DNA of 64,000 nucleotides from Eunapius fragilis (lineage: Eukaryota > Porifera > Demospongiae > Spongillida > Spongillidae), in NCBI GenBank assembly GCA_963681505.1, contig OY811991.1, positions 2,697,171-2,761,170 on the forward strand. The letters run 5' to 3'. Below, in pieces: positions 37,342 through 64,000 of this stretch; position 1 is the first letter of the stretch, and the number at the start of each line of letters is the position of its first letter. The notes beneath the pieces are model-generated. The model saw only the letters and a list, made by a program, of their open reading frames with translations, did no database searches and was not told where the DNA came from. A program made the position numbers and the translations under genes.

Positions 37342-40300
37342 TCCACAGGTCATTGCTGTACTTGAGATACTCATTCTGCTGTATTTTGCCATCTATTTCT
37401 TTCTAACCATGATATGGTTGGGGCCTTTCAATTACTTGAAGCGGATTAGAACCATGTTGATGGTGAGCCTGTGGGGAAGTGACCATGCGATTGTAGGTGG
37501 CACAGCCTCACTTGAAACTTGCAACTAATTTAAGAAACCATATACATGTATTAATCAGTGCTGTTCCATTGTAGCAACGCAGCTATACCCTGGCCACACC
37601 CAGACCCTCCACCCACCCTACTTATGCCCTGGCCCAGACCCACCACCCACCCTACTGGTGCCCTGGCCACACCCAGACCCCACCCACCCTACTTATGCCC
37701 TGGCCACACCCAGACCCACCACCCACCCTACTTATGCCCTGGCCACACCCAGACCCACCACCCACCCTACTTATGTGTTGTCCACACCCAGACCCCACCC
37801 ACCTTTGGTACTTAATTGGCACGCCATTGTTTTGTGGACCTGCTTGGGAGAATCTGCTTTAGAATTTTAACCCCTAAACTTACTTAAAATTTGAATTTTA
37901 ACCCCTGAACTGCTGGGTGCTGGAAGACAGCGTACACCACCAAATGTGCATGTATAGTGAGGTCATTGAGGAGTTAGGGGGAAGGTGGGGGGTGAGGACT
38001 AGGGGGTTCATATTCTGTGCAATCGTGTACTGTGCCATTATATCGTTCCTCTGCAGACCCTTATCCTTGTGGTCCTGCTCATTGATGCCCTTGTGGTCAT
38101 TGCTAGGACGGTCCCTCCTCACATTAGGGTCACCAGAGCTCTCAGACCTCTGTTCCTCATCGACACACACCTCATGTATGAGGTGCGTAGGTAAGGACTG
38201 GGAACTGGGGCACATATGTTTGCCTTTGGACCATTGACACATACCAGTATGGGATTGCCAGTACTTATACCAGTATGGGATTGCCAGTACTTACATGTAT
38301 ATCAGTATGGGATTGCCAGGACTTATACCAGTATGGGATTGCCAGTACTTATACCAGTATGGGATTGCCAGTACTTATATCAGTATGGGATTGCCAGTAC
38401 TTATACCAGTATGGGATTGCCAGTACTTATATCAGTATGGAATTGCCAGGACTTATACCAGTATGGGATTGCCAGTACTTATACCAGTATGGGATTGCCA
38501 GTACTTATACCAGTATGGGATTGCCAGTACTTATACCAGTATGGGATTGCCAGGACTTATACCAGTATGGGATTGCCAGTACTTATACCAGTATGGGATT
38601 GCCAGTACTTATACCAGTATGGGATTGCCAGGACTTATACCAGTATGGGATTGCCAGTACTTATACCAGTATGGGATTGCCAGTACTTACATGTTTATTT
38701 AGCTAATTACCAAAACTGTGTTTGCCGCTGCAGATGTTTGTGTAACCCTGGCAATGTGAAGGTTTGTAGCATAATCCCAGCTGGTTTTGATGGTTTGTAT
38801 CCCAGGGTGATGCGGCAAATTCTGTTATGCCTCAAGCGTATTGCCGATGTGCTGATTCTGCTGATGTTCCTTCTGGTGTTCTACTCCCTGATTGGTGCGT
38901 TAGGGTGTCCTCCAACCCTGCCCTGATCTCACCTTACTTACACAGGGTACTTATCTTTTGGTGACACTGATGTGGATGTAAGTGAAGTACAAATGTACCC
39001 TGGTGTGCATGTATGCATGTACACTATGATCATATACACATGTACACTATGATCACATACACATGATTCTATACTAATTCTAAATGTTTTCTTTTCTCTG
39101 GTACTGTGGGGTGGAGCTCTACACGTCCTCATGCATGGGGTGTACTTGTTGGATTACATGTTGGTTGATTTTGTGCTGCTTTTGGTTTCATTGGTTGCAG
39201 TACTTCAGAACTTTGGATAAGACCATTGTAAGCATGTTCATTCTCTTTACTACTGCAAAGTAAGTGCAGTAATGTCCTCCATTTCTTGATATCCTCCATC
39301 TGCTTTATTCATTGTTCATTTCCTCTTCCCTTCTCCACACATGTACACACATGCATGCACACACACACACACACACACACACGCACATACACACACACAC
39401 ACATGTACACATACACCTGCAGTAGTCCAGATATCATCATGGAGGCTTATTCACAAATTTATTGGGCACCTGTGTTTTATGTGGTTTTCCTTATTACAAC
39501 TCTGTACTTGGGCTCCAACCTTGTAAGTGGCCAAAATAGTGGGGGTCAAAGTTTGTTGGGGGTCGAAGTTCACAGTGAGATTTGTTTTACTCCCATCCCA
39601 CTGGTCATGTGATCCCACTGGTCATGTGATCGCACTGTTCATGTTATTGCACTGGTCATGTGATCCTACTGTTTATGTAATCCCACTGGTCATGTAATCC
39701 CACTGGTCATGTGATCCCACTGGTCATGTGATTGCACTGTTCATGTGATCCCACTGGTCATGGGATCCCACTGGTCACATGTTCATGTGGAATACTATTT
39801 TATGGAATTATTTGGAGTGCTGGAACCTTATAATTGCTATGTTGTTACTACCAGAGTCATTGAAACCAGGGGGTGGAGGCAAACCTCCACATGCCACATT
39901 ATACCATAACAACTTGCTAATAAACGTTCTATTTATTGCATTCGTCAATTCAACAAAAGGTTAAAAAATACGTGTACAAAGATTGGGGGGGGGGGGGGGG
40001 GGGGGGGGGATTTCATATCGATGACATGGGTGTGGTCACGATAAAACCACAGTTTTTAATAACCAGTTCATTGTAACCGGTATAAAGGCACACATGCAGT
40101 CCATCAGTACCTGCTCCTGCCTATAAGTCTCCTCCCCCCATTGCCTTCTCTTTCTCCCCGTTCCTCCCACCCATACACACACTTCCCACCATCTGTTAAC
40201 CCAAGTTACTCCCAGTGGTGTACAGCAAGTTCAGGGACACTGAAAAGGAGAAGTTCAAAAAGTTATTCTTTCACAAAAGGTTGGTGCCTGAATTGGCATG

Positions 40301-43300
40301 TGCAGTATGGAGCCATACTTAAGGTACATGCACGCTGATGACATAAGATTAAGCTTTATGTTGTCTGATGTCTACAGTAGTGTGACTTCTGTCCCTCCTG
40401 TTGGTGTCTCCCTTCTGTTGTCCCTTTAGTTGGTAGTGACCTTTCTATTGGTAGTATCTTTCCCTCTTACTTCTGTCCCCTTGTTCCCTGTGCACCAGAG
40501 AGGCACTCAGGAGGGCATATGCTGTCATTGCAGGACCTGATGGTATTGAGTTCCACGAGTTCCTTCTGTTCATGCAAGAATACCAGCCAAGGATACGTGA
40601 GTCATACACATCCACCCAAGGATACGTGAGTCATGCACATCATGGGGAGAATACCACCCAAGGATACGTGAGTCATGTACATCATGGGGAGAATACCACC
40701 CAAGGATACGTGAGTCATGTACATCATGGGGAGAATACCACCCAAGGATACGTGAGTCATGTACATCATGGGGAGAATACCACCCAAGGATACGTGAGTC
40801 ATGCACATCATGGGGAGAATACCACCCAAGGATACGTGAGTCATGCACATCATGGGGAGAATACCACCCAAGGATACGTGAGTCATGTACATCATGGGGA
40901 GAATACCACCCAAGGATACGTGAGTCATGCACATCATGGGGAGAATACCACCCAAGGATACGTGAGTCATGCACATCATGGGGAGAATACCACCCAAGGA
41001 TACGTGAGTCATGTACATCATGGGGAGAATACCACCCAAGGATACGTGAGTCATGTACATCATGGGGAGAATACCACCCAAGGATACGTGAGTCATGTAC
41101 ATCATGGGGAGAATACCACCCAAGGATACGTGAGTCATGTACATCATGGGGAGAATACCACCCAAGGATACGTGAGTCATGTACATCATGGGGAGAATAC
41201 CACCCAAGGATACGTGAGTCATGTACATCATGGGGAGAATACCACCCAAGGATACGTGAGTCATGTACATCATGGGGAGAATACCACCCAAGGATACGTG
41301 AGTCATGTACATCATGGGGAGAATACCACCCAAGGATACGTGAGTCATGTACATCATGGGGAGAATACCACCCAAGGATACGTGAGTCATGTACATCATG
41401 GGGAGAATACCACCCAAGGATACGTGAGTCATGTACATCATGGGGAGAATACCACCCAAGGATACGTGAGTCATGTACATCATGGGGAGAATACCACCCA
41501 AGGATACGTGAGTCATGTACATCATGGGGAGAATACCACCCAAGGATACGTGAGTCATGTACATCATGAGGAGAATACCACCCAAGGATACGTGAGTCAT
41601 GTACATCATGGGGAGAATACCACCCAAGGATGCGTGAGTCATGTACATCATGGGGAGAATACCACCCAAGGATACGTGAGTCATGTACATCATGGGGAGA
41701 TGTTACCTGGCTGTGCATTTCTCTCTCACCCCCTTTACTGTATCCCTTCCCATCTCCACCTACTCCCCTCTCCTTTTTCCCTTTCTCATCTTCCTTCCTT
41801 CTTCTCTCCCCTCCTCCTCGTCTCCTCCTCTTCTCCTCCCTGCTCTCACCCCTCTCCTTCTCTCTCAACCTCACCTATCTCATCCTCCTTCCCTCTCCCC
41901 CTTCTCCTCCTTCTCCCCTCTCTTCTTCACTCCTTCTCTCTCTTCTCTCTCTATCTCTCTGTCTTCTCTCTCTATCTGTCTCTCTCTCCTCTTCACTTCT
42001 GCCCTCTCTTCTCCTCCTCCTGCCCTTGTTCCCTCCATATTTTATCAGCGGAGTGGCAGGTGATGTGTATGTTCAAGGCTCTACAGGACAATCCTAGTAA
42101 TCCTCATGAGGCGCTAACACTCCAGCACTTCTATAAATTTTACACTGTCACTAACTATAACTGGAAATCCAAAAATCGCGACAACATATACTGGTTTTCC
42201 AACTGCTCCAAGTGTCTCAGGATACCATTACAAGGTTAGGTTAAAATCTATGTTGTTTATATGCTATTAATGTTTGATTAGTTGCTACTTGGATAATCAA
42301 TGATTAATGTGCATTTTTCATGTGCATGTGTGGATGTAAAGTAAAAAAACAATGATTGGAACCACATGTATCTTTTCTGATACTTTGCAGTTGTCAGCAG
42401 GCTGGTGGAATGGCAGTGGTTCAACCCTCTTATAAGTATGCCATTATTCTCTCTTCCCCAGTCTATTCCTCTCTCTTCCCCAGCCTACTCCTCTCCCTCT
42501 TCCGCAGCCTACTTTCTCACCCTCTTCCCCAGCCTACTCTCCTCTTCCCCAGCCCACCTCTCCCTCTTCACAGCCTACTCCTCTCCCTCTTCCACAGCCT
42601 ACTCCTCTCCCTCTTCCCTAGCCTCTTCCATAGCCTATTTTTAACCCTTGTCCCCAGTCTAATCCTCTTCCCCAGCCTATTTCCCAGCCTACTCCTCACC
42701 CTCGTCCCCAGCCTACTACTTATTGCCATTTTCCCTTGCTTACAATGCAGACTGCATACTGTTGGCAGACATCTTGTTCCTCCTCATTACAGTATCACAG
42801 ATTAATAGTAAGCACTGCAGCACACCTACAAGTGCCATTTCACCAACATTCCACCTCCTCATCCTACCCCCCACCTCCTCCCCTGACATCCTACCCCCAC
42901 CTCCTCCCCTGACATCCCACCCCCTCCCCCCTCCCCCTCCTCCCCTCCCCCTCCTCCCCTCCCCTCCTCCCCTCCCATCCCCCTCCTCCCCTCCCCCTCC
43001 TCCTCCTCCTCTCCCCCTCCTCCCCTCCTCCTCCCCTCCTCCCTCTTCCCCCTCCTCCTCCCCCTACCATCCCAGACCCTTCTGATCGCTTTGACATACT
43101 GCAGCACCTAGCTCCTGTGTCTTTTACATTGGTGTCAAGTAAGTGATGTATCCTTCAGGGGGTTGGGTTTAGCATCAGGGATTGTCATTAATCTTTCATC
43201 ACTATTTCATGATGATTCCCTCTTCTTTCACCTTCACTCTACTCTGCCCCTTTACTCCTCCCAGTATACTATCTGGAGATCGTACTGAAAATGCTGTCCT

Positions 43301-43497
43301 CAGGCTGTATAGCATACTTCTCAGTCTTCTGGAATGCGTAAGTACAACCATCTGGCCTCACACGGTGTGTGCAACACTTGTATGGTACCAGGTTTGACTT
43401 CATCATTGTAAGTGTGAGCTTTGTGGCCCAGATTGTGGAAATAAGTGGACACCCGTCAGCAGCCTTCCTCCGCCCTCTGAAGACATTCAGGTGCAGT

Positions 43498-43554
<57 letters not shown>

Positions 43555-45567
43555 TTTATCTCTGTCTCTCACTCTCTGTAAACATGCATATAGTTGCATG
43601 TACATGTATTTTGTACTTTATAGTTGCGCACCAATTCAATACCTACACACATAAATCTGCCAAGAGTTCAGAAAATTTTAGCCTGTGTTGTCCATTACAG
43701 TACCATAGTGACTTAAAAAATAATTCCTGTTCATTGGACGGTTTAGATAAGCTGTCAGCAATCGTAGTGCGGTGTAAACATAATTGCATAACCAGTATAC
43801 CAGGTAAGGGCCTAACGGAGTACATGTATGTATCACCTGCTGGTAGTGTCCATTGCTATTGTGGCCCTGGCACTGAGTGGAGGCGAAATGCAATTGATAG
43901 GCAATCGATAGGCAATAGATAGGTCATGCTATGAATACTGACAGGTTGCCTAAAGCCACCAATGAATTTTTATTTCCAGTCTTTGATAAACAAGTACATG
44001 ATATTGTGGTCTAATGTTTATAGAATACTGTTTCACAAGAAGAGGTATCGCAGAATATTGAACGTGATGTTGTCACTAATGCCAAGACTTGTGACGTAAG
44101 TTTTACAAGGCCTTCTTTATTTTCACATTACTTTGCATGCCACACCCACTTGCTCAGCATTGGTCTGATTCTCACTGTTGAGTACTACTTCTTTGCTATC
44201 ATTGGGATGGAATTCTTGCAGGGGAAAGTGTACGAAGGTTGCTGGTATGTTCAGATGCCAATTACCGTATATGATAATGTTAGAAATTTCTCTTTGCACT
44301 GATTCATTACTGTAGCGCCAATGCTTCGTATAATGTGGGACAGTACTTCAAAGACCCACTCGATTCCAACTCATCCAATGTGTTCTATTTAAACAACTTT
44401 GATAATGTGGCTCGGAGCTTTGGTATGGCAATGAAACAGTAATACCTGAAAATGGCATCAGTTTTGATGTTGCCCCCCCCCCCCCCCCTTATAGTGACAC
44501 TATTTGAACTGATGGTAGTGAATAACTGGTATATCACCATGGTAAGCCACACCTACATTGGTTACAGCCCTGATAGGTGCACCCTTTCAGGAAGGGTTTG
44601 CTAGTCAGTCAGCCTCACCTCACCTGACTAGACTGTTCTTCATGTCCTTTTACATCTGTACACTGGTGAGAGGTGGCTATTTATCATGCCAGGTTGCCGT
44701 GACAATACCTGTCCCTCAATGTGTGTACAGGTCACCATCACTGTAGCCATCTCCTTCATGGTGGAGGCTTTTGTCTCCAACGTGGAAGCAATTTCAGAAG
44801 ACAAACAGCGGGGTGAACAGGCCTACAGAACTGATGGTACATCTGTGGGGCAATAATTTGTTTTTTAAGGTGCATGATTTGCTCACTACCTCTTCTTATC
44901 TTTGTTTTTGGGCAATGTCTAACTGCACAGCCCTCTCTTTTCAGACTATGATGTGCAAAATGTGACAAAGACTGTGAGATTACTGAAGGAAGACATAGAC
45001 AAGCTGAGGTATGAGACGGCTTACTATGACCACAGAGTATCCAAAGGGGGAACGCTTAGCCGCTTTATCAGAAGGTGGAGGAGGATCGACCTTATACCGG
45101 TATTGCCCAATCCATCCATATCTTCCTATGTCTTGTATGTCCCAATCCATCCACATCTTCCTATGTATTTCATGTGCTACCTGTCCTGCATGTGTTAGTT
45201 GTTTAATGTTCCCTTCCCTGTTGTGAATATACCACCCTCTCACAGGGGGACCACTGCTACCAGGGTCGTCGGAACAATACCAGAGAGGACATCTACCTGT
45301 CCATTTACTGCTCTTCACTAAGCGTAAGGAAGCAGTCATGTCTTGTAGCCTTTCAATGATAGATAAAATGGATAGGGCCTTTTTATTAGCTTTAATCTAG
45401 CCAATCACTTTTTTAACTCCTTCCTCTCTACTCAGGCATGGACTCAAGAATATGATGAACGTAGGAAAATTTTGAGACAGCAGCAGCCACAGGATGAGAG
45501 TAAAAGTAGTCTATGGAGAAGAATTGCAACTGGTTTCCTTGCAGTGGTGAAATACATTGCAGAGTGA
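36468..45567 (+). CDS. TPCN1: two-pore channel, TPC1 type
   Basis: Endolysosomal cation channel with two six-helix domains. 867 aa. Exons: 36468-36696, 36792-36844, 36989-37228, 37349-37462, 38057-38190, 38806-38894, 38946-38977, 39201-39259, 39423-39522, 40206-40279, 40499-40596, 42049-42234, 42391-42435, 42751-42807, 43076-43138, 43265-43337, 43392-43490, 44024-44095, 44158-44244, 44316-44422, 44495-44541, 44591-44665, 44731-44836, 44945-45099, 45246-45323, 45436-45567. All junctions keep frame. Exons 3-10 are domain I: S4 RVTRALRPLFLID and filter TTANSPD. Exons 11-12 are the EF-hand-like linker. Exons 13-23 are domain II: S4 with RPLKTFR, filter FELMVVNNWY. The VNN filter and FMSFYICTL...VEAFV in S6 point to TPC1 rather than TPC2. 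Exons 24-26 give a helical C terminus. An AATAAA lies at about 45861. Confidence 0.96.
37273..37341. repeat. (CA)n in front of TPCN1 exon 4
   Basis: About 66 bp of CA dinucleotides ending 8 nt before the exon 4 acceptor (CTGTCCACAG). No conventional polypyrimidine tract is present. Confidence 0.97.
37570..37805. repeat. 41-bp minisatellite in TPCN1 intron 4
   Basis: About six copies of CCTGGCCACACCCAGACCC + ACCACCCACCCTACTTATG. Confidence 0.93.
38241..38697. repeat. 26-bp minisatellite in TPCN1 intron 5
   Basis: About 17 copies of ACCAGTATGGGATTGCCAGT + ACTTAT. The period of 26 is not a multiple of 3 and the unit has no stop in any plus-strand frame, which explains three overlapping open frames. 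It occupies three quarters of a 615-bp intron. Confidence 0.97.
39358..39402. repeat. (CA)n in front of TPCN1 exon 9
   Basis: Interrupted CA run ending about 20 nt upstream of the exon 9 acceptor (ACCTGCAG). It is the second CA tract at an acceptor in this gene. Confidence 0.93.
39598..39782. repeat. 17-18-bp minisatellite in TPCN1 intron 9
   Basis: About ten copies of CCACTGGTCATGTGATC with small changes (GTTCATG, TGTAATC). Confidence 0.93.
39985..40009. repeat. poly(G) tract, 25 bp
   Basis: Uninterrupted G run in TPCN1 intron 9. Confidence 0.95.
40588..41700. repeat. 42-bp minisatellite built from a splice-donor junction
   Basis: The unit GGATACGTGAGTCATGTACA + TCATGGGGAGAATACCACCCAA repeats 26 times in exact 42-bp register (donor motifs at 40626 to 41676), after a first irregular copy at 40597. 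The beginning of the unit, AATACCA-CCAAGGATAC|GTGAGT, is the end of TPCN1 exon 11 plus its donor. The array fills most of intron 11. Because 42 is a multiple of three, both strands show long open frames. Variants are few (GCACAT/GTACAT, one GAGGAG, one GGATGC). Confidence 0.98.
41705..42040. repeat. polypyrimidine (CT-rich) tract in TPCN1 intron 11
   Basis: About 330 nt of CCTCTCCTTCTC-type sequence leading to the acceptor TTTATCAG at 42048. It has no stop in the exon frame. Confidence 0.9.
42440..43070. repeat. CCTACTCCTCTCCCTCTTCC and CCTCCTCCCC arrays
   Basis: Pyrimidine minisatellites occupy TPCN1 introns 13 and 14 on both sides of exon 14 (42751-42807). Confidence 0.9.
43499..43552. repeat. 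(CA)n microsatellite
   Basis: About 52 bp of CA, starting 9 nt after the TPCN1 exon 17 donor. Confidence 0.97.
44473..44488. repeat. poly(C) tract used as acceptor pyrimidine tract
   Basis: C16 ends 6 nt before the exon 21 acceptor (TTATAG) of TPCN1, so the polypyrimidine tract is a C homopolymer. Confidence 0.9.
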
Positions 45568-53241: not shown

Positions 53242-55745
53242 GAGGAAAGGAGGCCCCAGACACCCCCTCCCCCCTCTCACACCACCATCCTCATCTGTGC
53301 ACACCCCACCCCCCAGCTACGGTCTCCGCAAGGCAGCACCGTAGTCTGGGCGTGGTTGCTAGTCAGCTGCTACTACCCCACATCGCCAGCTGCTGTGGAG
53401 TCGGTCCCGCCCACACCATCAGCTAGACAACTGGAAGCCCATCGTGCTGCAAAACACAATATACAAGATCTACACAGCCATCATAGCACGAGGGGTCTCA
53501 GGCTGGGCACGCAGTGAAAACATCATCAGCCCCTCCCAGAAGGGATTCCTGCCGTATGAGGGATGTCTGGAACACGGCTTTGTCCTGCGAAGTGTGCTCC
53601 AAGACGCATGTCGCAGAAAGAAACCAGCTAACGTGGTGTGGCTCGACCTCAAGGATGCCTTTGGTTCCGCCCCCCACAACATCCTCATAGAAGTCCTAAG
53701 GATGGCAGGCCTCCGTGATACCACCATCAAAGCCATCAAGGACATTTATGATGGCTCCACCACAGCCATCAGGACTAAATCAGAAGTCTCCCCTCAGATC
53801 CCCTGCCGAAGAGGAGTAAAACAGGGTTGTCCCCTCAGCCCCATACTCTTTGACCTAGTAGTGGAGGTAGTCATCCGGGCAATGGAGGGAGTCCCGAGGT
53901 CAGGATACCAGCTGGCTAACTCAACTGTCAAGACCCTGACCTACGCAGATGACCTCTGTGCCCTGGCCACCAACCAAGCCACGACCCAGAGGATGCTTGA
54001 CAAGGCCCAGGCAGCGGCGAAGTGGGCTGGCCTTAAATTCAACCCCAGAAAATGTGCTACCCTCACCATCCACCGAGACCATAGCTCAAGACAACGGGTG
54101 GACACATTCCAACCCACCCTGGATGGAGAACTGATCCCAGCACTCCCCTGGGAAGGGAGGTACAAGTACCTCGGTTGTAAAGTGGGAGCAGGCCCTAAAT
54201 CCGAGCTGCAGCAGGTGGGCACAGAGTACCTGGCTGACTGCGAGGCCATCCTCAAGTCAGGTCTGGCAGACTGGCAAAAGCTTGACGCCATCCACCACTT
54301 TGCCAGGCTGCACCTCATCTACCTGCTGCAGAACGCTGAACCAGCTATTGGGTGGGCGAGGTCACTAGACAAGGCATTGAGGGTCCTCACCAAGCTCCAC
54401 CTCAAGCTCCCACGTCGTACTATCTCATCCTTCCTTTACACCCCACCTAGGTTGGGGGGGCCTGGGCCTACCAAACATCGAGGATGAGGTCCACATCTTT
54501 AGAATTTCCTCGGCCTTCAAACTACTGTTCACCCAGAATGACAACCTTGTCAGTGACATTGCCAACTCAGCTCTGGCACAGACAACTGAGATTTGTTCAG
54601 AAGGCCAGAGGGGTGCCAGGAGTTCATCAACCGACCCTTGGAACCTGGTGAGGGCCGGCGTGGAGACATCACCACGATGTGGAGTGAGGTTCGAGCCTCA
54701 CTAACCCACTGCTAGGCGGAACTCCTCTTATACAGGAATGCCATCTCCTGTGGCGGGAAGACCACTGGATGGGCAAAGCGGAGGCTGGTGACCAGTCAAC
54801 TCTGATCCACTCTCCACAAGAGATACCAGGAGCAATGGATGCTCGCCAGGGACCAGGGCAGATCGGCAGCATGCATATCCGCCCACCCTGCGAGCAACCA
54901 CTGGATCAAGACCGGCAAATTTACCAGCTTTGGGGAGTACCGGTTTGCTCTGAAGGCCCGCCTTAACCTGCTCCACACGAGGACTGTAAGGAGCAGAGCC
55001 GGTGAACGGATCCCTGACCTCAGCTGCCCACGGTGCCAAGAGACTTTCGCTCATGTGCTCAACCTCTGTCCCAACCATGTTGGCCTACTGCGCCATCGTC
55101 ACAACAAGATCCTGGCTCGATTGGCAAATGCAGTGCCAGCGTGGAAGGGGCAGCAGTACAAGGAGCAGGTCATCCCAGGGGACACGCAGGGGCTAAAACC
55201 GGACTTAGCCATCTTCAATGAGGCCACCAAAGAAGCCTACATTGTGGACGTCACAATGCCCTTCGAGGACACAGAGGCATTCCCTGCAGCCCGAGCAGCA
55301 AAAGAGCAGAAGTACCACCACCTGAAGGCACTGCTCAGGTCCAAGGGGTACCACAAGGTAGAGGTGGATGCCTTCATTGTGGGCCCTCTGGGAAGCTGGG
55401 ATACAGCCAACAACTCAGAATCTGTCTGTTGGCTGAAGGTATGCCCGACAGTTTCGACAGCTCTGCTGCACTGAGGCCATCAAGGGCAGCTACACTATTG
55501 GAGAAATCTACTGTCAGGTGCCCAGGACCAGGATGACCCGTAAACTGCATCTCCACACTGCCCTAGGTGCCCCACTTGCTCCCTCTCCCCTTCGCAGGAT
55601 GTACTTTTTAGTGTGTCTGCAGCACAGTGTTTTTTTCTATACATGTATGTATGTACCTGTAATACCCAGCTATAATGCTAGAGAGTGTCGCCCCTTCGCG
55701 GGGGCCACCTCTTTGGCGGTGCTGACCTTGCTCATTTGCAATTAA
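53242..55745 (+). pseudogene. R2-like retrotransposon copy B (internally deleted)
   Basis: Starts inside the proline-rich N-terminal region (a degenerate copy of the RQH-SPG motif near 53330), then jumps to the reverse transcriptase. The RT frame 53444-54487 has motif QNTIYKIYTAIIARG, WLDLKDAFGSAPH, GVKQGCPLSP and the YADD box. After about 54460 the frame breaks twice. The C-terminal piece 54839-55474 has a CCHC knuckle shortened by about three residues and an RLE with KPDLAIFNE...EAYIVDV. The 3' UTR runs to about 55745. Not active. Confidence 0.87.
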
Positions 55746-57530
55746 AATTTAACTGTTCTTATGAGTGTAATTGATTTCAGTTTCTGGGTGTTTTTCAGGT
55801 GGGGGAAAGCCTTAGGTTAGGTAGAGTGTTAGGTCTAAAGGGAAGGGTTGGAGTCAGAATTGGCCGAATGGCAAAAGTTAGATGCATACCGCCGCTTCTT
55901 ATTCCCAAGACTATCCTATGTCCTGAAGATATTCTTCCCTGGGTCTCTGTGGTGCCGTAAGTTGGACACGGGGACGAGGAAATGGCTGAAGAAGGCAGTG
56001 TGCATTCCATCCTGCGCCTGCTCAGCATTCCTGTACACTCCACGCAGTACCTCAGTGGGCTCAGCGTCCCATGTATTGAGGATGAAATGCATGTCACCCG
56101 GGTAGCCCAAGCTTTCAAATTCCTTGCTGAAACCCGGGACCCCACTGTACGACGTCGCACGTCTCCAGTTGGAAGAGGTCGTCTGGAAAGCATGTGTGTC
56201 CCTCGGTCGGTACCGCTATCAATCGATCAGCTTCCCACCTTCCTCAACACACCTGCCCCATCCCAGGATGATGCACGCGGCGACCTCAAAAGTTTATGGA
56301 GCTCAGTGAGACCTATCCTTCAACATACGCACGCCACCATCCTCCTCTCCCAGGAATCTGCCTCAGTCAATTGTGATGGTTTTGAAGTCTGCTGGGCGAA
56401 AAGACACGACATCAATCGAGTGTTGAAACTCGCAACCCAGACCAGACACTTGAACATGCTGCAAGAGGAAGGAAGAGCGAGCTTTTCTACCTGTCTCGCA
56501 AATCGTCAAATTACTTTACTTACTCAGGCGCGTACCTAACGTTTCCCCAACACCATTTCGCCCTGAGAGTCCGCCTGAACCTCTTACCAACTAAAACAGT
56601 CCAGACAAGATGTGGTAAAGTAATCCCCGACACTCGCTGCCATCAGTGCCATATGGTCCCCGAGACGTTGTCTCATCTACTTAACCACTGCCTTCACAAC
56701 ATGGGTCAGATCAGAGAACGTCACAATGTAGTGTTAGAGAGACTAATTCATTATATTCCACCATCGGTGGGAGACAAGTTTAAAGAACAACCTCTGCCTG
56801 ACACAACGGGAGCCAACCGCCCTGATCTAACGATCATTGCGCCAGACGGTCGTTCTGCAGTCCTTGTGGGCGTTTGTGTGCCGTTTGAAGGAGTTCCAGA
56901 AGCTCTCCAGGAAGCGGCTGAAGAGAAGGTCAGAAAATACAAATCATTGCGGCGAACCCTCCTGGGCCTTTTTGAAACGGTTAAAGTACTCCCCTTCGTG
57001 GTAGGAAGCTTGGGGAGCTGGTTTCCCCCCAATGATGAAGTCCTCAAAAGGCTTCACATTGGGTGGAAATGTACTGCGCTAATGCGCAGACTCTGTGTAG
57101 CCTCTGTTATTGTGGGCTCACAGGACATCTGGTTCCATTCAGCCTGCCCCCACCCTGGTACCAACGCTCCCAGCCACCTCCAAACCCACGACTTGCCACC
57201 GCTATCCGCCAACCCGTCCTGTCTATAACTAAGAAGTTAAGATTAATAATACGAACTTTACCTACACGCACTCATATAGTACACTCATTTATGTTGCACT
57301 TTGTTTGTCTCTGTGCTACTGTGCAGCATAGCCTACTTACTCACCCCCGCTCAAGTGCTCTGGACAGTCTGCAGTTCCCTGAATGCCCCGCGCTCCATGG
57401 TCCTGCGAAAGAACATATATGTGTGAAGCATTTGTATATCTCTTAGTATTATTTGTTTAGATAGTCCTTAGTTATAGGTTGCTGTGCATTGTACTTCTCC
57501 GCCAACCTTGGTTGAGGGGCCCCTCTGCGA
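55746..57530 (+). pseudogene. R2-like retrotransposon copy C, second subfamily
   Basis: Begins with the same 105-bp leader that precedes copy E, then jumps at about 55851 into the RT thumb (LAEWQKLDAYRRFLFPRLSY). Frames change near 55990 and 56535. The CCHC is CHQCHMVPETLSHLLNHC and the RLE reads NRPDLTIIAPDG...LVGVCVPFEG, ending at 57228. The C-terminal sequence is clearly different from copies A, B and D and like copy E. Confidence 0.85.
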
Positions 57531-58758
57531 AGTGGCCGTAGGTCGCACCCATTGAAGGCCCGACTCCAAACGTTGCAAACACGACCTCCTCCTCACCTGG
57601 CTGGACCTACGGGACGTATTTGGATCAGTCAACGCTCCCCCAGAGAATGGAGAAGGCCTGCAGGGGGACATAAAGTCACTCTGGAGTAGAGTGAGACGCT
57701 CACTACAGCTCTGTAGAGCCACCATTGACCTCACATCGAGGAGAATATCCATAGGGGGCATGGAATATGGCCCGTTGAAGAGGGGGATGATTTGCAGAGC
57801 AATGAGGGCAGTCATGCAAGAGGGTCACCTCTTGAGATGGAAAAGTGCTAGAGACCAGGGGAGGGCAGCAGAGTGTGTGGCAGCCCATCCAGCCAGCAAT
57901 CACTGGATCAGAGGTGGCAAATACACCTCATTCAGTGAATACCGATTTGCACATAAGGCCAGACTGAACCTCCTCCCCACACGTACCGTGAGAAGGAGAT
58001 CTGGGGAAGCAATAGCGGATGTGAGCTGCCCCAAATGTCACCTGGAACAAGAGACACTAGCTCACGCTCTTAACCACTGCCCACCACACGTGGGTTTGAT
58101 TCGGCAGCGACACAATAGGATCCTCCATCGGCTTGCCAAGGCAGTCCAACCGGCAAAAGGAAGACAGTTCCTAGAACAGATGGTACCGGGGGATAACAGG
58201 AACCTCAGACCAGATTTGGTCATAGTGAACGAGGCCAAATCGGAGGCCTACATAGTTGATGTGGCAGTACCATTTGAGGGAGAAGAGTCCTTCCCAGCCG
58301 CAAGAAAGTCCAAGGAAGACAAATACCATCACCTCAAAGCCCTTCTGCACACGAAAGGCATCCAAAAAGTTGAGGTCGATGGTTTTGTGGTGGGTGCACT
58401 GGGCAGTTGGGACCCAGAAAACGAGGGGGTCCTAAGAAAGCTGTCCATTGGGTCCAGATATGCGACCCTCTTCAGAAAATTATGCTGTACAGAGGCCATT
58501 AAGGGCAGCTACGCCATCTGGAGGGCAAAGACAGGGTGACCTGGAACCCCTAAATGAAGAGTGATGGAACTTGGACTCTATATTGCAAACAATTTTACTA
58601 GATGTGTTTCTCTATGTGTACGTGTACGTACCGCCTTGGCGGAGGGCCCTACATGTGTACTCACTTTCACCCGGCCGATGAGCCGGAGAGTGCCACCCTG
58701 CGAGGGGTCACCTCTTCGGAGGTGTAGGCCTTACTTGCTTTATGCAAATCAATTTTTA
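57531..58758 (+). pseudogene. R2-like retrotransposon copy D (RT deleted)
   Basis: Starts with RT motif A (LLTWLDLRDVFGSVN at about 57588), which is fused after a large deletion to the post-RT region (PPENGEGLQGDIKSLWSRVR). The remaining frame to 58539 is intact: CCHC CPKCHLEQETLAHALNHC and a complete RLE domain (RPDLVIVNEAKSEAYIVDVA, then KYHHLKALL and GALGSWD). It gives the reference C terminus of subfamily 1. The 3' UTR is about 220 bp and resembles that of copy B. Confidence 0.88.
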
Positions 58759-61700
58759 AACTGTTCTTACGAGTGTAATTGGTTTCGGTTTCTGGGTGTT
58801 TTCGGGTGGGGGGAAAGCCTTAGGTTAGGTAAAGCGTTAGGTTTAAAGGGAAGGGTTGGGATAAACTCTACTTGGTCTTGGTCAGGAGGTCTGAGGGCGT
58901 AGGCCCACCTTATACCCGCCGGAGATTATTTTGCCCGAAATGGACTTCCCACCGGACGAAGACGAAGAGACCGAAAGGAGAAGTCCGCGTGAGTGCCCAG
59001 AGGATGTAGACGAGAACCGCGTGACTCCGACAGCTGGTGGCGAGTCAGAAGAGAACCACGTGACTCCGACCAATACCGGTGGAGAGCCTGAGGAGACGGA
59101 GGAGAACCACGTGGCTCCTAATACAGGAACAACCAGCGCGCGGGCCCAGAGTACGGACTTTACCGTCGTACATCCAACGCAAGTCCGCTTCACCTGCCCA
59201 GTATGCGCGCTGACGTATCCAAAGCACGCCTCGCTCATTCGTCACGTGGGTGTGTCACACAAGAACGTGAACCTCAACATCAAGTTCAAATGCGCTCTGT
59301 GTGACTACACTCACGCGAACAAACGGTCGACATCGCTCCACTTCCGGCACGCCCACGGCGTCGCTATCCCTCCGGCGACGATTGACGGGTCCAAAGAGAA
59401 GGCGTGTCCCTTCTGCCCTCTGACGTTCCCATCCAGCCACTCGTGCTCCACCCACATCAGGGAAAAGCACATGACTGAGGCGTGTCAGCAACGTTCCCGA
59501 GAGGCAGCACAGAAGGAGGCCCAGCAGGGTGTGTCAACAGCCCGTACAAAGTGGACCCAGCGCGAGATAGAACTTTTCAAGGCCGCGCTCGCAAAGTACG
59601 GGCCTGGATCCAACATCAAACTGGCCAAGGAGATCGGGACCAGGTCTACAGAGCAGGTCAACGTTTACAAGTGCAGGTTCCTAAAGGCCTACCCAACTTG
59701 GGTATCGGAACACTACCACCCGGCCATACCTGTAGACGGAACCGCCCGCTCCTCCGCTACGACACGTAGCCCATCCTCGCAGCCACAGGTTGGCCACACA
59801 CCTCCAGGCCCCAGCAACACCCAGGGGAGCAGGACAGCGGGCCCCAGGGCACTTACAGTCCCAACAGTAAACCGGAGGCGTGGGGCGCTCCCCGCATTCC
59901 CCACATCGCCACCATCATCACCACCAGATGCAGCAGCTGCCGGGCAACAGCTGCCTACCAGGTCCCCAACATCTACCACCCCACACCAGGCTGTGGCCTC
60001 CGCAAGGCAGCACTACAGTCCTGGGGTGGGTGAGGCACAACCACAGACCCCTGCAGCGACGCCACCTCCGACCCCACCAATCACCGTTTCCCCAGTCACC
60101 GCTCAACCCAGCCAAGAGGAAAGGACCCCCTCACCACCACCTGTGCCTGTCTCAGAGGGAGGGGTACTGAGGCTCCAGCTCCTTGACCAAGCGCTGACCA
60201 TCCTAAGGTCCAACAACATCTCCGTGTGGGACCCTGAAGACTCTTGCTTCTCCCCACCGGCAACGGACCTGGCCACCCCGACATCCTCCTCACCTCTGAC
60301 TACGGTCCCCGCAAGGATGCACTGTAGCCCAGGGATGGGTGGGGCCTGCCAGCCTCAGCCACCACCAGCTACCATCCCACCTGCTCCAGCAATCACCCCA
60401 CCTCCGGCTCCAGTCACCGTAAGGAAGCCCTATAATACAGAGGTGAGTGTGGATCACCTGATGTCGCCGCTCGCTGCATATCCAGAGGAGGCACCAGTGT
60501 CACCACCCTCCATCTTCCAGTCCCTCCTGCACGTCCCGCCATTCGTCCCGGCTGTCCCACGTACATCCATGATGACACGACGACTGGATCAGGCGCTACA
60601 ATCCCTGAGAGGAGAGGCTCCAGACACCTCCCCCCCTCCCACGCCACCATCTCCACCTCAACACGCCTCACCGCCGACTGTGGTCTCCGAAAGGCAGCAC
60701 TGCAGCCCGGCGGTGGACGTGGTCATCAGCCAGCCGCTACCTATGTCGCCAGCTGTGGGAGGGACCAACCCGCCAACACCACCGTCGTCACCTGGCCAAC
60801 TACCACCTCCGGCTGGGGTCCCCGGTCCACCAGCTACCATCACCATCGACCCAGAAAGGATGGATGAAACCCTGCGTATGCCCATGTACCAGGAGCTCAC
60901 CCCCTTCTCTGGGAGGCGGCTGGGGACCTTTGAATGGGTGGCCTTCGAAGAGGTACTGAAGCGCTGGTCCACTGCCATTAAAGAGGTGGTGACAGCTCAG
61001 CGTCGCCGCCCCCCCAACCCCACATCTCAATGGGCACGTCGACCACAGGGACGCGGCAACAGAAGCGGAGCAGCGGCAACACTTCCAACTGACCTACCTG
61101 CTCCTGGACCAGGCCAGCCAGACAGCCAAAATGGGGATAACACCGCCGGCAATCGGCGCTACCGAACACCAGGCATAGCTCGGCGGGCAAACGAGGCAAG
61201 GACCATACAGCGAGCGTATCGTACCAACCCGGGAAACTGTATGCGCCGCCTCCTCCAACCCTGGACCCCCAGTGTTCTGCAAGATCGGGGACGCAGAACT
61301 GGTAGAACATTTCAATGCAGCCTACTCCGTGCCACCTCCTCTGGGACCCCCACCCCTGTGGCTGTTCCCTCCAAGGCACCCAGAATCTCCTGCAGAGAAC
61401 GTAGAGGGTGATGTCCTCAGCGAACCGTTTTCCCCAGATGAGGTGCTTGGGCAGCTTAGGAGGACAAAGAGATCTGCTCCAGGGGTGGACGGCATCACCT
61501 ACTCAGATTGGAGATGGGTGGATCCCCTAGGCTCGATCCTGGCAGCCATATTCAACACCTGCAGGCTAAACAGGAAGATCCCTACTGCATGGAAGCATTC
61601 CACGGTGACCCTGATTCACAAGAGGGGAGATGTGGCCATAATACAGAACTGCAGCCTGCAGCTAACAATCTATAAAATATACTCTGCCCTGATTGCCAGA

Positions 61701-63478
61701 CGCATAGCTGCCTGGGCTATATCAAATTCAGCGTTCTCACCGGCCCAGAAGGGCTTCCTGGCCTACGATGGCTGTGCAGAGCACAACTTCCTGCTACGCT
61801 CCATGTTCACAGACTCCAGGCGAAAAAAGAAGAACCTACTGTTGACATGGTTGGATCTCCGTGAAGCTTTTCCATCGGTGTCACACGACCTCCTGTCCCT
61901 CATGATGGAGAGACTTGGCCTTTCTGGGTCCACCCTTGACATTGTGCGGGACATATACACCAACGCCTCCATCGCCATCCGCACGGGTAGGGAGTCATAC
62001 ACTCCTCCCATCTTCCAGAGGAGGGGTGTGAAGCAAGGGTGCCCACTGAGCCCTATCCTATTCAATATTGTGTTGGAAGGGTTGCTACGCCACCTATCGA
62101 GCTGTGATGCTGGGTACACCCTAGCTGGATGTAGGGTGAATTCACTAGCATACGCTGATGACGTCTGTATAGCAGCCTCCAGCAAGGAAGAGAACCAGCA
62201 CCTGTTGGATAGAGCAATGGAATACGTGGAGTGGGCAGGGTTTGCCTTCAACGCCAAAAAGTGTGGTTCCCTGTGTATGATCAATCAGGCTCCTCGAATC
62301 TCTGTAGATCACCTCTACACCCCTCGTCTGGGAACGGATGTCATCCCTGCACTCTCGTGGGAGGAACGCTACAAGTACCTGGGGTGCCCTACGGGTGCCT
62401 TCCGCTCGAATGCCAAAGTGCTTGAAGAGCTACGACAGTCCCTTGTGAAGGATACAGATACTGTCTTCCAGTCGCCCTTGGCGGAATGGCAGAAGTTGGA
62501 TGCTTTTTGGAGGTTCCTGTTCCCCAGGCTATCATTTGCAATGAAAGTCATGTTCCCCGGAATAACGTGGTGCAAGAAACTAGATACCTCTCTAAGATCC
62601 ATCATCAAACGTGGCCTCCACCTACCCAGGAGGACCTGCACCCATTACTTCTATCTATCTCACGACCTAGGAGGACTGGGGATCCCGAGCGCAGAAATGG
62701 AATCCCATGCTGTCAAGGCAGGGCAAGCATTCAAGTTTCTCGCAGACACCAGGGACCCGTACATCAGAGCGGTAGCACTGGACCAGCTGACAGACACAGT
62801 GAAAAAGAGAGCTCGCCACCTCGACCCCAACAAACCCGAACATCTGTCAGAGTTCCTAAACAGTTCGGCGCCCCCAGGGGAAGGTGGAGCAGGGGACATG
62901 CAAAGCATCTGGAGTCAGTGTTGGGATAGCCTTGCCACTGGCGGGGCAACCATAGAGCTAACACAAGACTCGGCAACACTCCATACTGTAGACCAGCATC
63001 TGTCCTGGATAAAGCGGAACCAGATAGTCCAAGTCCTGAAACAGGCCATGAAGTTGCGTCATCTGAATGGACTCAGAAGATCCATGGACCAAGGCAGGGC
63101 GTTCGACTCGGTAGCTCAGCACCCGGACTCGACCTTCTTTACATACACCGGAGCATTCCTAACCTTCCCACAGTATCGATTCATACACAAAGCGAGGCTC
63201 AACCTGCTTCCTGTGAGAACGGTGCAAGCCCGATGTCGCCAGGCAGTCCCTTCAACCCAATGTCGTTTGTGTGGGAGGATGCCAGAGACACTTGCACATG
63301 TACTGAATCACTGCCACGCCAACCTGGGACTAGTACGAGAGCGACACAATGCCATCCTCGATAGGATTGTGCGGGCTGTTCCTCCCAGCCTTGGAACAAA
63401 GTACAAGGAGCAGGCAATACCTGGCACCACGGGAAATAATAGGCCTGACCTCACAATCATATCTCCGGACGAGTTGTG
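58759..63478 (+). mobile_element. R2-like non-LTR retrotransposon copy E, nearly full length
   Basis: Leader from about 58759. The first ATG that fits is 58940; an earlier in-frame TTG is not needed. The N terminus has three C2H2 fingers (C86/C89/H102/H107; C118/C121 with H134/H139; C156/C159/H172/H177) and a Myb-like domain (about 203-250), then about 450 residues rich in proline. Around 61250-61265 a one-base shift moves the frame to the RT ORF that ends at 63478. RT motifs: TVTLIHKRGD, TWLDLREAFPSVSH, GVKQGCPLSPILF and LAYADDVC. CCHC CRLCGRMPETLAHVLNHC and the start of RLE (GNNRPDLTIISPDEL) close it, and the remainder is cut off by unrelated sequence. Three N-terminal fingers plus RLE place it in the R2-type (A-clade-like) group. 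Confidence 0.9.
59990..60720 (+). repeat. degenerate ARQH-SPG motif repeated in the R2 proline-rich region
   Basis: Three copies of about 45 nt coding for (A/E)R(Q/M)H(Y/C)SP(G/A), at about 60000, 60308 and 60686, separated by about 300-380 bp. A fourth, decayed, is at about 53325 in copy B. Confidence 0.75.
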
Positions 63479-64000
63479 ATGGTGTAATAGTCACTGACGA
63501 AACATGAACGCTTATGTTCTCTCGCTTTATTGACACGACCAAAGCCGATTTCTTCGAACGTTCTTCATTCTTTAGGTGTGGCGCTAGTCTGAATTTTCTC
63601 CCACCCATCACCTTTGAAGAAGCGCATGCCGTGAAAAAGTCACTAGTTACACAAAAAAATTCTTGAACTCAAAAATACAAAGCAAGAGCTACAAGACAAT
63701 ACCACTTTTAGACATGTAACGTGTATGATGAGGGGTACATTTTCCCTTCTGATAAAACTTGTTTCCTTGCTTTTTACACCAGTATACTATTTGCCTGCAA
63801 AACTACATACACATACATTGAGTAAGTTAGATACTGCTTAATCACCAGGGAAGCATGGTACTGGTGAGGCTGTGCATTCTGGACCTCACCCAGAGGTTGC
63901 CTGACATGGTAAAGTCTAGCTCATGTCATTGGCCCCTCCCATCTGAGGGCCCATGGCTATGTCATCATTACATACACATACATTGAGTAAGTTAGTTACT
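63479..64000. other. repeat DNA truncating copy E
   Basis: Unrelated sequence follows the R2 frame directly. A 31-bp direct repeat (ACATACACATACATTGAGTA...) is at 63806 and 63971, and a MITE end (CTTGTTTCCTTGC) of the family at 9.1 and 19.6 kb is at 63757. No gene is seen. Confidence 0.6.

Follow-up and report, generated by a model that had tools for sequence, protein, structure and literature searches.

A minisatellite in the human gene IFI6 (6-16/G1P3) was reportedly found by Turri et al. in 1995 to provide multiple splice donor sites. Two downstream repeat units of this gene are stated to be used as donors, giving three mRNAs (PMC4526556). In amphioxus, tandem duplications of exon–intron boundaries termed 'mirages' have been described in Adh3, the globin genes BflGb6 and BflGb9, troponin C and PGBD5, and they are stated not to interfere with regular splicing (PMC3087553, PMC3902484). 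The amphioxus work also proposed that boundary minisatellites are a source of new introns (PMC3087553). Internal tandem repeats (on average 30-bp units, 4 copies), some of them at exon–intron boundaries, are reported in a study of human segmental-duplication genes (PMC2812944). Our literature search returned mirages by name for amphioxus alone, whereas repeats at boundaries were returned for human genes too; other cases in print are possible. Here, we analyse an array of 27 splice donors at an exon boundary of a TPC1 gene and its counterparts in the same genome.

The TPC1 gene and its array-bearing intron

The whole 64,000-nt stretch of Eunapius fragilis DNA that was analysed (hereafter the window) contains a gene in whose 3' half 12 exons (40216–40279, 40499–40596, 42049–42234 and nine more) encode 352 residues without a stop. 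When these residues are compared with proteins of solved structure, the best match is TPC1 (6c96, which we take to be the mouse protein; E = 6e-62), well ahead of a sodium channel (9iti, 3.8e-30), TPC3 (6v1q, 1.9e-26) and TPC2 (8ouo, 3.5e-16), and the name TPCN1 given to the gene in a first-pass annotation is thus supported. The alignment with 6c96 is gap-free over the junction of interest (YQPRI-PEWQ against YKPRM-SARE). The exon before the array is bordered by the acceptor CAG/AGAGGC and the donor GGATAC/GTGAGT (slashes mark exon–intron boundaries), and is 49% identical over 35 residues to the corresponding exon of a paralogue.

This paralogue is another TPC gene, located on the opposite strand at a distance of about 120 kb (G000:C21, about 2851800–2857600, minus; L012–L014). 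Its intron positions match those of the window gene, and its introns contain other minisatellites. The intron in question is present in the same phase (AAGATGC/GTAAGT ... CACACAG/CTGACTGG); it is 886 nt long, which is not a multiple of three, has 14 stops and carries an unrelated 44-bp minisatellite well inside, clear of the donor. The TPC1 intron predates the array, since the paralogue shares this intron, phase included, but has a different minisatellite in it; the array is confined to one of the two gene copies. TPC1 homology and the paralogue intron of equal phase together confirm, at the level of predicted gene structure, that the real junction is the intron 40597–42048. The coordinates of the main features are reported in table 1.

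Table 1. Features of the TPC1 array and of related arrays elsewhere in the genome. Positions without a contig name refer to the window.
Feature	Position	Strand	Remarks
594-codon open frame through exon, entire intron and next exon	40455–42239	+	intron 1,452 nt = 3 x 484, stop-free
TPC1 exon before the array (exon 11 of the first-pass annotation)	40499–40596	+	98 nt, encodes REALRRAYAVIAGPDGIEFHEFLLFMQEYQPRI; aligns to 6c96
Source segment of the repeat unit	40571–40611	+	last 26 nt of exon and first 15 nt of intron
Authentic 5' splice site GTGAGT, copy 1	40597–40602	+	TPC1 frame across junction; paralogue intron position and phase match
42-bp minisatellite, donors 2–27	40612–41700	+	TRF 25.9 copies, 99% matches, score 2129
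Pyrimidine-rich intron tail	41703–42048	+	346 nt, 90% C/T
Authentic 3' splice site AG	42047–42048	+	extra AGs at 42052–42053 and 42058–42059
Next TPC1 exon (exon 12 of the first-pass annotation)	42049–42234	+	PEWQVMCMFKALQDN...; gap-free 6c96 alignment; paralogue exon TADWQVLCVFNAL
GEN1 junction array	L045 and L049, G000:C5:9005900–9008650	-	19-bp donor array after one exon
IFT140 junction array	L052, G000:C11:2408400–2409300, junction near base 471		CCTGGTGCAGAG/GGTATGCA, then four more copies, 49-bp steps
Junction array of predicted coiled-coil gene	L037/L048		GGAGGATGGAAG/GTAAGACT and five more copies, 25-bp steps, one AT for GT
Dispersed 30-bp repeat arrays	G000:C1:10833213–10834840 and C1:17146096–17147033		among the matches listed

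The acceptor AG at 42047 is separated from the preceding AG, at 41698, by a 349-nt AG-free stretch. This stretch is mostly pyrimidine, and the branch point might be located a long way upstream, even adjoining the array. Two other features of the window were observed. An array of about 24-bp units (CTCTTCCCCAGCCTACTCCTCTCC) at 42451–42624 directly follows the donor of a following TPC1 exon and multiplies the acceptor-like CCCCAG within the intron, a mirror image of the donor array. Further on, at 53363–63479 on the plus strand, long open frames resemble by eye the proteins of non-LTR retrotransposons, with reverse transcriptase and zinc-finger-like motifs.

Structure and origin of the array

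The word GTGAGTCAT is found at 40597, at 40626 and, from 40668 on, at intervals of 42 bp up to 41676, which makes 27 sites in the window; TRF additionally reports a 29-bp pair at 40583–40641. The first-pass annotation described 27 identical donors. This is accurate for the hexamer GTGAGT, kept in 27/27 sites, and slightly too strong for its surroundings: AAGGATAC/GTGAGTCAT is identical in 26 of the 27, the deviating copy at 41634 reading TGC/GTGAGT (G at -2).

The same annotation derived the unit from the end of the exon plus its GTGAGT donor, and the alignment agrees with this: the 41 nt from 40571 align with the 42-bp unit with 36 matches, five mismatches and one 1-nt gap (36/41), and the exon part of this segment scores 37 against the unit, the maximum among 2,000 shuffles being 24. 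CAT is found at both ends of the source stretch 40571–40611, which suggests a short-homology duplication. The first two donors are spaced by 29 instead of 42 nt because copy 2 is devoid of 13 nt of the unit. From the observed sequence relation and homogeneity, we infer the following steps: a segment of about 41 bp, bounded by CAT on either side, would have been duplicated in tandem, bringing 26 nt of exon end and 15 nt of intron start into the intron, and slippage or unequal exchange would have enlarged the array to 26 copies and homogenized them.

The consensus is matched exactly by 18 of the 26 array copies. The others lie on the 5' side (copies 2, 6, 7, 9 and 10) and at the 3' end (41550, 41592 and 41676, the last of which runs off the array). 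The variants are ordered: a T to C change at +11 is common to copies 2, 6, 7, 9 and 10, and single changes occur at 41569 and 41632. A whole-genome search with 201 bases of the region gave 12 matches, all at the TPC1 array, with a method that under-counts repeats. Assemblers can miscount repeats as uniform as these, with 99% identical copies and 18/26 of them exactly consensus, and the copy number might thus be an artefact of a shorter array; but the array is 1.1 kb long, its copies carry the ordered variants and the window has zero N, so that we attach next to no weight to this explanation. A length of 1.1 kb falls within the common span of long reads.

Predicted splicing outcomes

Splicing from donor 1 to the acceptor that ends at 42048 yields the conserved protein. 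With the same acceptor, all of donors 2–27 are predicted to lead to RSGR-stop (26/26), the TGA being at 42061–42063, 171 nt before the end of the exon; the displacement of 29+42n nt and the reading CGG AGT GGC AGG TGA in the first-pass annotation are both correct for the acceptor ending at 42048. The two AGs 5 and 11 nt past this acceptor (exon starts 42054 and 42060) each restore a stop-free frame for 26/26 downstream donors. The earlier claims that only the first donor is in phase and that the 26 others are unproductive hold for the first acceptor and fail for either later AG; retention of the intron is also in frame. The 'unproductive' outcome is one among several that can be predicted from the sequence.

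On that outcome the first-pass annotation built a model in which the competing donors cause copy-number-dependent nonsense-mediated decay, tuning TPC1 expression. It is consistent with the TGA met by 26/26 downstream donors with the first acceptor, with the presence of further introns downstream and with the gain of one more such donor per added unit, but the frame-restoring acceptors and the published mirages argue against it, and we regard it as very unlikely.

Another possibility is that the intron is an exitron, retained and translated, which would add 484 residues, mostly 14-residue repeats (YVSHVHHGENTTQG), to the cytosolic linker between the two channel domains. Among the 11 introns examined in the window gene, this is the sole one that is both a multiple of three and stop-free, and since the unit length is also a multiple of three, changes in array length preserve the frame. 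Against this, the chance of a stop-free intron of 3n nt at the given composition is about 5%, the paralogue intron has neither property and the 346 nt of the tail are simply a pyrimidine tract; such a function is most improbable. As the paralogue has an ordinary intron at the same place, the sequence is an old intron rather than a piece of an ancestral exon. The array was likewise rejected as coding sequence: the frame of the 14-residue repeat is open, but at a chance level of about 5% for such an intron.

Choice of the splice donor

The predicted duplex with U1 has the same energy for the four copies tested (1, 2, 3 and 26), -5.8 kcal/mol, compared with -5.7 for the paralogue donor and -14.0 for the consensus. 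Because these duplexes are equal and 26/27 copies share the letters concerned, nothing intrinsic favours copy 1. A GGGG element can enhance a 5' splice site; it is present at +19 in 25/26 of copies 2–27, and the first GGGG of copy 1 is at +48, a placement that, if anything, advantages the copies over copy 1.

Two candidate roles of RNA structure and of the donors themselves were considered and rejected. In predicted RNA folds, the donor 9-mers are mostly paired, copy 1 included, with opening probabilities of 0.001–0.035 for copy 1, means of 0.000–0.057 for copies 3–27 and a background of 0.145–0.204; folding was discarded as the selector of copy 1, which is buried like the other copies. Neither AATAAA nor ATTAAA is found in the intron, and shielding from premature polyadenylation by an array of U1 sites was discarded since there is no obvious signal to shield.

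What would favour copy 1 is that the authentic 98-nt exon ends right at it. Several exon-near donors might be used nonetheless, with in-frame lengthened isoforms from the later acceptors or truncated ones from the first. Equal predicted strength in the four copies tested is in keeping with such use, as is an extension that is stop-free in the exon frame, with 26/26 downstream donors in frame into 42054 and 42060. An AG downstream of the first AG is usually disfavoured as an acceptor, and the AGs that would rescue the frame come after a first AG that is itself preceded by 349 AG-free nucleotides. The published cases point both ways: two downstream repeat units of human IFI6 are stated to act as donors (PMC4526556), but the amphioxus mirages are stated to leave splicing intact (PMC3087553, PMC3902484). 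Undisturbed splicing, as in the mirages, is by analogy the more likely outcome, and IFI6-like use of several donors seems unlikely but not negligible.

With a probability of about 0.7, we interpret the array as a neutral boundary minisatellite, or mirage, which would be spliced mostly at 40597, the other 26 donors being mostly silent. Since all the new copies fall inside the intron, the gene would still be spliced from its first donor. By analogy with amphioxus mirages, we infer that splicing continues from 40597 to 42048, donor 1 standing directly after the authentic 98-nt exon with its exonic signals. The array would then be an effectively neutral product of a minisatellite-rich genome.

Minisatellites and donor motifs in the genome

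A sample of 264 kb, composed of the window, 30 kb around the paralogue and 17 pieces of other contigs, 10 kb each, contains 72 arrays with at least three copies (period 12–120), 31.5 kb in total; 29 of them have at least 10 copies. Donor hexamers are not enriched in these arrays: GTRAGT is present in 4/72, and four other letter orders in 3, 7, 4 and 5/72. In a second scan of the same sample, GTRAGT formed four clusters, and the three controls formed 10, 10 and 5. The genome-wide counts, which are of matches and not of arrays, vary with the motif. Triplets of AGGTRAGT gave 355+263 matches, fewer than the reversed control (619+432), and ACGTGAGT gave 51+6, also fewer than its reversed control (583+357). 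Three copies of CAGGTAAG gave 515+263 matches, far above the control (10+24). This is the single count that speaks for enrichment, but 83 of the 100 places listed out of 778 are one dispersed 30-bp repeat. This tandem repeat carries a near-consensus donor, CAG/GTAAG, in each unit and makes up two or more long arrays on a single contig (table 1). Because donor motifs are not consistently enriched in the abundant minisatellites, chance seeding suffices to account for arrays that include a donor.

By our own estimate, which takes 72 units of about 35 bp for the 264 kb, array seeds would cover about 1% of positions. Many boundary hits are to be expected genome-wide on our assumption that donors number some hundred thousand. 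A repeated junction, defined as one whose 20-nt sequence recurs with at least 16/20 matches, was found at 1/12 donors of the TPC1 3' half in the window (the array itself), at 0/10 donors of the paralogue and at 0/11 acceptors of the window gene. This control took in exons 40216–44836, the exons before and after being left out; two paralogue donor positions are one base out, and the least certain of the window donors is that at 44837, since the exon after it is not joinable in frame. One repeated junction among 22 donors is unremarkable, given the seed cover of about 1% and the fact that the window was picked for its array.

Junction arrays in other genes

Among 100 of the 618 AGGTRAGT places that were listed, there are 16 distinct donor-like arrays, two of which begin at an apparent coding exon (L037 and L045); the remaining 14 have no exon start, or a start that cannot be judged. 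L045 belongs to GEN1, of which two joined exons match PDB 5t9j (E = 1.2e-21). Exon A ends in NLRE; after it, ...AGAGAG/GTGAGTAA recurs five more times, the final copy reading GTGAGGAA. More GTGAGT copies come after the next exon, exon B, without a repeat of the exon part. By eye, the intron after exon A also contains another minisatellite, a long one built of units like CACAGGTGTGGGTAGTGACCATCTT. L037 lies in a predicted coiled-coil gene, for which no family match above the cut-off was obtained. As both genes were found via a search for donor arrays, they give no rate.

A third array, in IFT140 (match to 8fgw, E = 1.5e-12), was found by accident beside a ACGTGAGT array. It has at least five copies in all, and its donor may start one base later than given in table 1. 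The 16/20 rule is passed by GEN1 exon A, by IFT140 and by a later exon of the coiled-coil gene; it is failed by GEN1 exon B and by an earlier exon of the coiled-coil gene, where the donor is repeated and the exon part is not. ACGTGAGT itself is found in six arrays genome-wide (57/57 places), of which that of TPC1 alone begins at an exon in the sequence examined.

One further array with units of 38 bp (L047 and L050; G000:C5, about 10590963–10593520, minus) has 43 AGGTRAGT motifs in two joined pieces. Its units carry CAG/GTGAGT, and it begins right after a C-run ending in CAG, with no evident exon.

The TPC1 array has company: at the sequence level, similar junction arrays are present in GEN1 and IFT140, both supported by homology, and in one predicted gene. 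The GEN1 and IFT140 cases suggest that exon boundaries have been repeatedly caught in minisatellite growth in this genome. A more far-reaching interpretation is that boundary minisatellites recur genome-wide in this early-branching animal and that in TPC1 the 27 equal donors compete, the 14-codon unit, the stop-free array and the two rescuing acceptors allowing some transcripts to carry in-frame inserts in the cytosolic linker that vary with copy number. We consider this improbable; if true, the length of the array would heritably tune the TPC1 isoforms. An intron with 27 donors predicted to be equally strong constitutes a natural test of 5' splice site choice, the candidate deciders when sequence cannot decide being distance to the exon, exon definition and the order of transcription.

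Comparison with described boundary minisatellites

The TPC1 array has in common with the amphioxus mirages a tandem, minisatellite-like duplication of the boundary in which many repeats retain the splice signals. Its unit spans the boundary (26 nt of exon and 15 nt of intron), the AG/GT signals are kept, with GTGAGT in 27/27, and a homogenized interior is flanked by divergent edge copies (18/26 consensus), as in concerted evolution. The unit length of 42 bp is inside the range of 10–72 bp stated for the Adh3 mirages. The array is larger and more uniform than those of BflGb6, with 27 donors against six and three units in two haplotypes, and copies 99% alike against 81–100%. Normal splicing, length polymorphism and somatic instability belong to the description of the amphioxus mirages, whereas the TPC1 array is known from the sequence of one assembly.

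The hosts also differ. A search of the 219-Mb genome for Antennapedia-type homeodomains, reading exon by exon and scoring the best candidates only, gave seven matches, none of them above 49% identity. A bilaterian would be expected to show matches of more than 80%, so that the host is probably an animal lacking Hox-like genes, most like a sponge. Five of the seven lie within 110 kb of one contig (G000:C16:2877845–2986792) and may form a cluster of NK type in such an animal. The host of the TPC1 array thus gave no Hox-like homeodomain in one search and is probably not a cephalochordate, and what is new is the presence of several boundary arrays in one such genome.

With human IFI6, the array shares the principle that minisatellite units can be donors; it differs in the gene, in the unit and in the use of the units, which is stated for IFI6 at the level of mRNA (PMC4526556). 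The internal tandem repeats of human segmental-duplication genes are likewise minisatellites that modify genes, some of them at boundaries; they are variable between paralogues, almost all supported by RNA and read as possible new introns (PMC2812944). In TPC1, by contrast, the intron is old and common to the paralogue. The TPC1 array thus joins the known boundary minisatellites as a large and very uniform member, likely of neutral origin.
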